Under the pieces are notes generated by a model. It did not search any database. It was given only the letters and a program-made list of their open reading frames with translations, and was not told the origin of the DNA. A program made the translations under genes and the position numbers. This document shows, in pieces, positions 1 through 8,923 of a stretch of 8,923 nucleotides of DNA (positions are counted from its first letter, which is position 1; every line of letters starts with the position of its first letter). This DNA comes from Turicibacter sp. (GTDB lineage: Bacteria; Bacillota; Bacilli; MOL361; Turicibacteraceae), in the NCBI GenBank assembly GCA_030531025.1, contig JAUMTV010000123.1, positions 1 through 8,923 on the forward strand, in the 5' to 3' direction.

Positions 1-207
1 GAAAATGGTAGGTGACCCAAGCCCTAATAGTGGGGAATTAGATTTCTTTCAGAAATCGTTAGGTGCCCCATTCCCTAGCAAAGGAGGAGTAGATTTCTTT
101 CAGAAATCGCTAGGTGACCCCTGGACGATAGTTGGCCTTGAACTTAAAAAGGACTAGAAACTGAGTATGATTCTGAAAATGTAGATTATTTCTCTGTTTT
201 TATATAG
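1..207 (+). mobile_element. BOX-like modular repeat element, copy 1 (left end outside window)
   Basis: This is the right-hand part of a repeat element that occurs three times in the window in the same orientation. It shows the end of one stem-loop module (1-18), two complete modules (19-69 and 70-120), and an 87-base right box (121-207) that starts CTGGACGATAG and ends TCTGTTTTTATATAG. By hand count the right box differs from that of copy 2 at about 12 of 87 positions with no gaps. No open reading frame of note lies inside it, so if it moves it is non-autonomous. It ends 14 bases before the start codon of the HD hydrolase gene. I do not recognise it as a named family; the left-box / n modules / right-box layout resembles BOX elements of pneumococcus. 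Confidence 0.75.
19..120 (+). repeat. two tandem 51-bp stem-loop modules of element copy 1
   Basis: Two adjacent modules (19-69 and 70-120) share the layout CCCTA, a purine-rich stretch, an inner hairpin GATTTCT-TTC-AGAAATC, then TAGGTG and a C-rich end. The outer stem pairs CCTAA with TTAGG in the first module and CCTAG with CTAGG in the second, so the fifth pair changes from A-T to G-C while pairing is kept. The end of a further module lies at 1-18. The pieces between the conserved parts are themselves related, so this is not a CRISPR array. Confidence 0.75.
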
Positions 208-221
208 AATTTGATGAACTA

Positions 222-749
222 ATGAATCATGCCATAGAATATCTTTCTATGGCATTAAGTGCTACAGGTCATAATGATAAACCTGTTTTACTTCATAGCA
301 TTAGAGTCGGTTTTCATCTCTATCATTTAGGTTATAGTGAAGAGATTGTTTTAGCAGGACTATTACATGATCTATTAGAAGACACTAACACTTCAAAAAG
401 TGATTTACAGAATCATTTCGGTGAAAAGATCACTCAGATTGTATGTGCAACGTCATTTAATTCTTTGATTAAAGATAAAACGGAACAATTTAATGAGATG
501 TTCAAAAGATGTGTCATGTACGGCAAGGAAGCCTTAATAGTAAAAGCAGCAGATATTTTAGATAATAGTCACTATATTCAGTTTGTCCCTCATCAAGAAA
601 AACAGCTATGGTTGTTATTTAAGATGAAACGTTTTATTGACCTATCAAAAGAACTCATAGAAACTGAAGAAATTTGGATGACTCTCAATAAACAGTATGA
701 GAGTCTATTAATACAATTTGGTATGTCCTCATCATCGATTGTCAGTTGA
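222..749 (+). CDS. small HD-domain hydrolase, possible stand-alone (p)ppGpp hydrolase
   Basis: The 175-residue protein carries the metal-binding pattern of the HD superfamily in the form seen in RelA/SpoT hydrolase domains: H25 and R28 in LLHSIRVG, H49-D50 with E53-D54 in GLLHDLLEDT, and D111 with N115 in VKAADILDNS. Length and motif spacing fit single-domain alarmone hydrolases (MESH1/SAH-like), which remove the 3' pyrophosphate of (p)ppGpp with Mn2+. No synthetase or TGS/ACT domain is present, and no signal peptide or membrane segment. The substrate is inferred; another nucleotide is possible. ATG 222 is the only start upstream of the first motif: the frame is open back to 177 without another start codon. 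No Shine-Dalgarno sequence precedes it. The gene lies tightly between two copies of the same repeat element, 14 bases after one and 1-2 bases before the other, so the upstream copy may have displaced its original leader. Confidence 0.8.
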   Translation: MNHAIEYLSMALSATGHNDKPVLLHSIRVGFHLYHLGYSEEIVLAGLLHDLLEDTNTSKSDLQNHFGEKITQIVCATSFNSLIKDKTEQFNEMFKRCVMYGKEALIVKAADILDNSHYIQFVPHQEKQLWLLFKMKRFIDLSKELIETEEIWMTLNKQYESLLIQFGMSSSSIVS

Positions 750-750
750 A

Positions 751-879
751 ATATATAAGTCCAGATAAATTTTCTTCATAGAAAATTTTTATCTGGACTA
801 TAGTTAGTCTTGAAGTTAAAAAGCATTAGGAATTAAGTAAGATTCTAAAAATGTAGATTATTTTTCTGTTTTTATATAG
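751..879 (+). mobile_element. BOX-like repeat element, copy 2, with no internal modules
   Basis: This short copy (about 129 bp) has a left box that matches copy 3 (TATAAGTCCAGATAAATTTT and on to 790) fused directly to the right box (793-879, CTGGACTATAG to TATATAG). The two ends are imperfect inverted repeats: ATATATAA..CAGATAAAT on the left against CTATATAA..CAGAAAAAT read from the right. The segment 759-798 folds into a long hairpin, GTCCAGATAAA..TTTTC with GAAAATTTTTATCTGGAC, with a 2-base bulge. The element starts 1-2 bases after the stop codon of the HD gene. It is the minimal form of the family. Confidence 0.75.
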
Positions 880-900
880 TTAATAATTAGTTTAAATTAG

Positions 901-933
901 AAAAAGGAGTTGCTACTTAGACAACTCCTTTTT
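901..933. terminator. bidirectional Rho-independent terminator
   Basis: AAAAAGGAGTTG (901-912) is a perfect inverted repeat of CAACTCCTTTTT (922-933) around a 9-base loop. The stem has a run of T on its 3' side whichever strand is transcribed. It lies between the converging HD hydrolase (+) and short-chain dehydrogenase (-) genes and can end both transcripts. The 150 bases from 934 to 1083 show no gene or other recognisable signal. Confidence 0.85.
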
Positions 934-8269: not shown

Positions 8270-8461
8270 ATGGCTCGTGTTTGTACAGTTACTGGACGTC
8301 GTACTAAAACAGGAAACGCTCGTTCACACGCTATGAACGCTTCAAAACGTACTTGGAAGTCTAACGTTCAAAAAGTTAAAATCTTAGTTAACGGTAAACC
8401 TAAAAAAGTATACGTTTCTGCTCGCGCATTAAAATCAGGAAAAGTAGAACGCGTTTATTAA
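8270..8461 (+). CDS. rpmB: 50S ribosomal protein L28
   Basis: L28 of the large ribosomal subunit, 63 residues, the normal length. The family pattern is clear: [20 protein letters not shown], then [31 protein letters not shown] and a terminal VERVY, close to the B. subtilis protein. It has a single cysteine (C5) rather than paired Cys-x-x-Cys motifs, so it is the zinc-free form. The strong SD AAGGAGGT lies about 10 bases before the ATG. It is monocistronic, with its own promoter and a strong terminator, and divergent from yloU-fakA as in B. subtilis. Confidence 0.98.
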
Positions 8462-8462
8462 T

Positions 8463-8506
8463 AACATAAAAAAGGTTATCTCTTCGGAGATAACCTTTTT
8501 TATGTT
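8463..8506 (+). terminator. Rho-independent terminator after rpmB (UUCG loop)
   Basis: A perfect 20-bp inverted repeat (arms 8463-8482 and 8487-8506) closed by a TTCG tetraloop; the core is GGTTATCTC / GAGATAACC followed by six T. It begins right after the rpmB stop codon. The stem is symmetric enough to work on both strands. Confidence 0.95.
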
Positions 8507-8693
8507 ATTAACCCTTTTCTATTAACAATAACTCAATCTTGACTCAATTTTTATGAACTCTATCACTTTAGCTTTTTTCCGTAACTTTTAATATTTTAAT
8601 AAAGACATGGGAAGGTATTCTAACAGTGTAAAAGAAGAAGTAAGTTTATCCTAATGCTTTACCTACTTTAAAACATTCATCTTTTTAATGATA
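8507..8693. other. non-coding stretch with no recognisable feature
   Basis: About 190 bases of AT-rich DNA between the rpmB terminator and element copy 3. I see no open frame with a ribosome binding site, no convincing promoter and no strong hairpin here. Confidence 0.6.
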
Positions 8694-8922
8694 CTATATA
8701 AGTCCAGATAAATTTTCTTCATAGAAAATTTTTAAGCCCTAGTAGCGGAGGAGTAGATTTCTTTCAGAAATCGCTAGGTGACCCATTCCCTACCAGTGGA
8801 GGATACATTTACTTCGTAAATGGCAGGTGACCCCTGGACGATAGGGTGTTTTTATAAATAAAGGATATCAGTATTTTTTGTTTGCTACCTTAGATGTAGA
8901 ATACTTATCTGTTTATATATAG
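8694..8922 (+). mobile_element. BOX-like modular repeat element, copy 3, with two modules
   Basis: The only complete copy with modules, 229 bp. The left box (8694-8733) begins CTATATAAGTCCAGATAAAT and contains the same hairpin as copy 2. Two modules follow (8734-8784 and 8785-8833), then a right box (8834-8922) starting CTGGACGATAG and ending TCTGTTTATATATAG. Its two ends are imperfect inverted repeats (ACTATATA at 8693-8700 against TATATAGT at 8916-8923). The middle of the right box is diverged from copies 1 and 2, so this copy may belong to another subfamily. It lies in the same orientation as the others and not next to the HD-type gene. Confidence 0.75.
8734..8833 (+). repeat. two tandem stem-loop modules (51 and 49 bp) of element copy 3
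   Basis: The first module (8734-8784) is close to those of copy 1, with inner hairpin GATTTCT-TTC-AGAAATC and outer stem CCTAG/CTAGG. The second (8785-8833) has inner hairpin CATTTAC-TTC-GTAAATG and outer stem CCTACCA/TGGCAGG with one A-C mismatch. Three of the seven inner pairs are replaced by other Watson-Crick pairs between the two modules, while loop and length are unchanged. Both end GGTGACCC. Confidence 0.75.
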
Positions 8923-8923
8923 T

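Follow-up and report, generated by a model that had tools for sequence, protein, structure and literature searches.

Composite repeats of the BOX type have been described in a few streptococci, and a common source has been suggested for them (PMC3049150). As outlined in that account, BOX follows an A-(B)n-C plan in which the inverted-repeat ends pair together, as in RUP. The inner modules of BOX fold largely apart from the boxes, and long arrays of modules give by-product open reading frames (PMC3049150). The same source names two further BOX-type families in S. suis and describes RUP by its inverted repeats and target duplications (PMC3049150).

Here, a repeat of comparable layout was analysed in an 8,923-nt stretch of Turicibacter DNA with a GC content of 34.7%; this whole stretch is called the window below. 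The original prediction, made from the sequence alone, had placed three same-strand copies at 1-207, 751-879 and 8694-8922, that is, three copies within 8.9 kb, and this was borne out by blastn within the window and by a repeat finder. The limits of copy 2 were revised to about 752-880, and copy 3 was found to extend from about 8694 to the window end. The predicted numbers of 49-51-nt modules between the boxes also held, with none in copy 2, two in copy 3, and at least two plus a partial one in copy 1. Two end boxes and tandem inner modules with n starting from 0 are the arrangement of the BOX plan. The features of the three copies and of the gene adjoining copy 1 are as follows.

1-18, forward strand: 3′ part of a partial module of copy 1, cut by the window start (GAAAATGGTAGGTGACCC); repeat comparison.
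19-69, forward strand: full module M1b of copy 1; covariance model, 72.7 bits (one of the model's four sources), and blastn.
70-120, forward strand: full module M1c of copy 1; covariance model, 80.2 bits (one of the model's four sources), and blastn.
121-207, forward strand: right box of copy 1, with a TATATAG end at about 207; 86% over 87 nt against 793-879.
207-749, forward strand: HD-domain gene (Pfam HD_4/HD), the end of copy 1 probably standing in place of its first codons; first in-frame ATG at 222.
752-791, forward strand: left box of copy 2; 40/40 identical to 8695-8734.
758-799, forward strand: hairpin of copy 2, formed by the left box and the right-box start, the site of the modules in copy 3; fold of 757-801.
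793-880, forward strand: right box of copy 2, modules being absent between the boxes; blastn and repeat finder.
8695-8734, forward strand: left box of copy 3; blastn and repeat finder.
8735-8784 (model match 8734-8784), forward strand: full module M3a of copy 3; 77.9 bits (one of the model's four sources).
8785-8833, forward strand: full module M3b of copy 3, with the variant hairpin CATTTAC-TTC-GTAAATG; 66.9 bits (one of the model's four sources).
8834-8922, forward strand: right box of copy 3, similar to the others at the first 11 and last 29-30 nt alone; blastn and repeat finder.

In the blastn comparison within the window, the modules of copies 1 and 3 matched at 84% over 113 nt (E 1.3e-29), and positions 1-69 matched 8767-8833 at 72% over 69 nt. 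It had been predicted that all three copies share both boxes. This was upheld for the left boxes of copies 2 and 3 (E 8e-17) and for the right boxes of copies 1 and 2 (E 8e-26); the left box of copy 1 lies outside the window, and since this copy starts before base 1, only two left boxes are observable. The right box of copy 3 agrees with the other two only at both ends. Its first 11 nt, CTGGACGATAG, are common to copy 1, its last 29-30 nt are 86-87% identical to the other right boxes, and its middle gave no match to them by blastn within the window or by the repeat finder. Taken as a whole, the earlier observation of a repeat family was partly confirmed. The four full modules, from which the covariance model was built, scored 67-80 bits, and the rest of the window no more than 8 bits; as the model derives from these same modules, only the gap between the scores is informative.

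The predicted folds differ between the copies with and without modules. In copy 2, one strong hairpin forms between GTCCAG of the left box and the CTGGAC that opens the right box. The fold of 757-801 reached -20.2 kcal/mol (z -6.77), a value that none of 200 shuffles attained, and the whole of copy 2 gave z -4.24. The modules of copy 3 are located between ...ATTTTTA and CTGGAC, which is the descending arm of the left-box hairpin. For the whole of copy 3, z was only -1.73, and the GTCCAG/CTGGAC stem, though able to close around the modules, was absent from both the minimum-energy and the centroid folds. The predicted fold of copy 3 brings the two inverted-repeat ends together in two 7-bp blocks.

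A module consists of three parts: a stem on the outside, roughly CCTANN/NNTAGG; a bulge rich in purines, roughly AGNGGAGGANTA; and a hairpin of 7 bp closed by a UUC loop. Three of the four full modules have GATTTCT/AGAAATC as their inner stem, and the remaining one has CATTTAC/GTAAATG. All four keep the TTC loop, most of the bulge, and AGGTG, while the stem letters change. The structure was described by 13 named pairs, drawn from the same four modules on which it was counted, a small set. Standard pairs filled 98.0% of the cells and 4 of the 13 pairs had changed on both sides, each of these two values being reached by 2 of 500 shuffles; for further pair types, 25 of 500 shuffles did as well. 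In slid controls, with the partners moved by 1-3 columns, 27-45% of the cells were paired. Single modules were no more stable than their shuffles (z +0.15, -0.46, -0.72 and -1.43), and the minimum-energy fold had both named helices in one of the four modules, M3a. The paired changes could also come from templated repair of the palindrome, without selection.

The element ends in imperfect inverted repeats (CTATATAA...). In all six comparisons, 15 of 22 positions agreed between the left end and the reverse complement of the right end; the six are not independent, the left ends being identical and the right ends related. The p values ranged from below 5e-5 to 4.5e-4, with shuffles that keep composition only. 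All five visible ends are compatible with a TA insertion site, although the repeat itself also contains TA. The flanks of copy 2 contain no clear duplication longer than TA.

The HD-domain gene next to copy 1 was compared with its homologues. Its reading frame opens no earlier than the base that follows the element's TAG. The homologous protein P0001 is 99% identical to the window protein over 175 residues and carries 11 extra N-terminal residues, MRSRNLEFDEL. The N-terminus of P0001 is MRSRNLEFDELMNHAIEYL; the window has the element end and TAG in that place. A start at the P0001 position, 11 residues before the window ATG, was found in 10 of the 12 other HD homologues examined, and P0003 and P0010 begin earlier yet have a methionine at this position. 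The usual first codons of the window gene were probably lost to copy 1, and the close relative P0001 keeps them. A start lost in the window gene and kept in a protein 99% identical to it suggests, at the protein level, that the insertion took place since their split.

Copy 1 lies at the start of the HD gene, copy 2 follows it, and copy 3 is located beyond rpmB, 7.8 kb from copy 2. Judging from the translations, the other genes of the window encode a short-chain dehydrogenase, RNase III, PlsX, RecG, FakA, an Asp23-like protein, and ribosomal protein L28. The best named matches of FakA are in Turicibacter, at 99% identity (a MAG) and 97% (strain TJ11). No transposase was recognised by eye among the open reading frames of the window. 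Copies 1 and 2 bracket the HD-domain gene in the same orientation (window 1-880), and recombination between their right boxes would delete it. A terminator-like inverted repeat, noted by eye, lies 3′ of copy 2 at window 901-933, so copy 2 may lie within the 3′ untranslated region of the HD mRNA. Another terminator-like sequence, a perfect 25-bp inverted repeat at window 8458-8511, overlaps the end of rpmB.

One reading frame (KMVGDPSPNSGELDFFQKSLGAPFPSKGGVDFFQKSLGDPWTIVGLELKKD) runs without interruption through the modules of copy 1, from base 2 up to a stop codon at 155-157. The peptide of this frame, fused to the corresponding stretch of copy 3, served as a bait in a search of 5.8 billion predicted proteins. 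Matches were obtained for 19 of 20 candidates at E ≤ 10, and 16 of those 19 reached E ≤ 1e-3. The matching peptides are 44-84 residues long, and the contigs behind them presumably belong to Turicibacter. By eye, P0248 contains four tandem modules. Ten of the 19 peptides pass through a closing TIV/TIG, as CTGGACGATAG would give, into five unlike continuations (by eye), which suggests that the right boxes vary. It is probable that gene callers produced these peptides by reading through the same DNA unit, and that the unit is kept as DNA and not as peptide. In the bulge of the module at 70-120 and of other modules, GGAGGA resembles a Shine-Dalgarno sequence, and this may explain why gene callers start peptides inside the arrays.

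Module-type hairpins in these arrays were spelled from the peptides, not observed in DNA, and they can be spelled in all three frames: DFFQKS in frame 0, TFSSKM and TLTLSM in frame 1, and YIFFENG and DIDVVNG in frame 2. An unrestricted count gave 122 spellable hairpins, compared with a shuffled mean of 55.3 and a maximum of 79 in 100 shuffles; the 66 that lie outside DFFQKS showed no clear excess. The unrestricted count was mostly due to DFFQKS, and therefore only a position-specific test was used. This test covered the 33 module ends that spell GGTGACC and are preceded by 25 nt or more; it left out those closer to the start, those in which another letter is spelled (as in P0255 and P0256), and those cut by the TGA. 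The common DFFQKS/DFFHKS type accounted for 28 of the 33 ends, and the other five were of two kinds only, three MLRM and two TLxxSM. All five uncommon ends allow a spellable hairpin with a stem of 5 bp or more where one is expected, before GGTGACC (null mean 0.87, maximum 3 in 200). Stems of 7 bp were possible at two of the five, with a null maximum of 2.

The original prediction had named no matching family, and the searches agree with it. None of 4227 Rfam families matched the window at the gathering threshold; at E ≤ 10, window 8650-8923 gave one match, shuA_thermo, with E 7.7. No such family was described among the matches listed for the Turicibacter literature on repeats, intergenic DNA, insertion sequences, MITEs and transposases, and the retrieved parts of the literature on interspersed hairpin RNA motifs held nothing related. 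Neither copy 3 (blastn) nor peptide P0246 (tblastn) had a match among 72,556 plasmid and 50,697 phage records. The IMG/VR scans, all but one by exact pattern, gave a single exact match and none confirmed. This match, L008, was taken as chance, its contig having 67.9% GC. Also in IMG/VR, 57 stretches matched DFFQKSL, and none of them was confirmed.

Two overlapping samples of 398 genomes each were also searched; judging from the gene neighbourhood, their class and phylum are presumably Bacilli and Bacillota. With window 8699-8845, 3 of the 398 class genomes had a match at E ≤ 0.01, each of 25-27 nt, and these were taken as chance. Model R1, with stricter filters, matched 9 of the 398 phylum genomes at E ≤ 0.1 and at most 23.6 bits. 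These matches were likewise taken as chance: 12 of the 17 listed were a bare hairpin, and the window modules score 67-80 bits. As neither sample included a known repeat carrier and no positive control was among them, these negatives are weak. When window FakA was compared in evenly drawn samples, the best identity was 55% in 398 phylum genomes and 54-55% in 391 class genomes, and nothing was found at E ≤ 1e-190 in 398 class genomes. With RecG of the window as the query, no more than 7 loci were confirmed in a scan of genome contigs, at identities of 37-44%. Seven and three short bare-hairpin matches (L024, L027 and L032) were found in genomes G377 (6.6 Mb) and G336 (6.5 Mb), respectively; they perhaps represent another, unrelated hairpin repeat.

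Several explanations of the repeat were weighed. A 51-nt period could encode a 17-residue repeat (GDPFPSxGGVDFFQKSL), either in a small protein or at the end of a longer gene starting before the window. The open frame of copy 1 and the 19 peptides called elsewhere in the same frame, with DFFQKSLG invariant, are what such a gene would give, but those peptides were found by a query in that very frame. In copy 3 the frame stops at a TGA within the second module, and copy 2 has no modules to encode. By eye, GLFAMLTAVGP and DCSPCSLLWAP appear to be translations of a single DNA sequence in two frames. Neither window peptide has a Pfam family at E ≤ 10, and the copy 1 peptide lacks a meaningful PDB match (best E 0.68). 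The hairpins spellable in different frames make a protein unlikely as well. The frame, Pfam, PDB and spellable-hairpin evidence disfavours a protein-coding repeat, which we regard as very unlikely. The bracketing of one HD-domain gene by copies 1 and 2 would suit a reading of the copies as pieces of one larger, already known mobile element or of an integrated phage, but the distance of copy 3, the plasmid and phage records, and the IMG/VR scans all argue against it, and we consider it very unlikely.

The repeat could instead be a dispersed structured RNA with its own function, the modules being tandem RNA binding units whose number tunes strength, for example through GGA-rich bulges holding a protein or the ribosome. 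The paired changes in both module helices, the loop, bulge and AGGTG kept while the stems change, and the hairpins allowed at all five uncommon module ends in other arrays are consistent with this explanation. Against it, Rfam gave no match, the three copies lie in unlike places, the modules are dispensable in copy 2 and singly not unusually stable, and the five uncommon-end hairpins are spellable only and of two kinds. We find an RNA of this type rather unlikely. Finally, the modules may be selected RNA units within a mobile element, whose variable array of bulged GGA-rich hairpins would titrate an RNA-binding protein or the 16S rRNA 3′ end. We consider this quite unlikely; if true, the module number would set the effect on neighbouring genes.

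The explanation that we prefer, with a probability of about 0.6, is that the repeats form a new family of short, non-autonomous mobile elements (MITEs) built on the BOX plan. The original prediction had proposed both the A-(B)n-C plan and a mobile or structured nature, and they are supported in part, by the inverted-repeat ends, the paired module changes, the probable insertion at the protein level, and the array variants in other contigs. The element is bounded by a left box that is conserved and a right box that varies, and it ends in the imperfect inverted repeats. Modules, from zero to at least four in tandem, sit in the descending arm of the left-box hairpin. The ends and the probable insertion suggest a passenger element moved in trans by a transposase; the enzyme, encoded elsewhere, would recognise the ends and insert the element, probably at TA. 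Since the module number varies, the array would then grow or shrink by slippage or by unequal recombination between the tandem hairpins. Transcripts running through the element would fold, presumably without a dedicated product.

Like BOX of S. pneumoniae (PMC3049150), the Turicibacter element has end boxes enclosing a variable number of tandem modules, paired inverted-repeat ends, inner modules whose folding is largely separate from that of the boxes, and by-product reading frames in its arrays. Unlike BOX, its modules sit in the arm of the left-box hairpin, and its right boxes vary strongly. The two are apparently unrelated in sequence, and we liken them by plan, without claiming membership by sequence. 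The hosts also belong to different orders, Turicibacter to Erysipelotrichales and the streptococci to Lactobacillales. The S. suis RepSU1 and its relatives, as described in PMC3049150, have alternative end modules around shared inner modules, which is what the Turicibacter right boxes suggest. Their host differs, and the comparison is one of plan. With RUP-type MITEs, the Turicibacter element shares its short length, its inverted repeats, and possibly a TA target, which in Turicibacter is inferred; RUP, in contrast, is a simple repeat without modules. RUP has a TA target and is associated with an IS630-like transposase.

That a common gut genus has the same plan, built from sequence that is apparently unrelated, suggests that this plan can arise independently. 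It gives a second system in which to study the accumulation of tandem hairpin modules within small mobile elements. Strains could also be told apart by their module counts.
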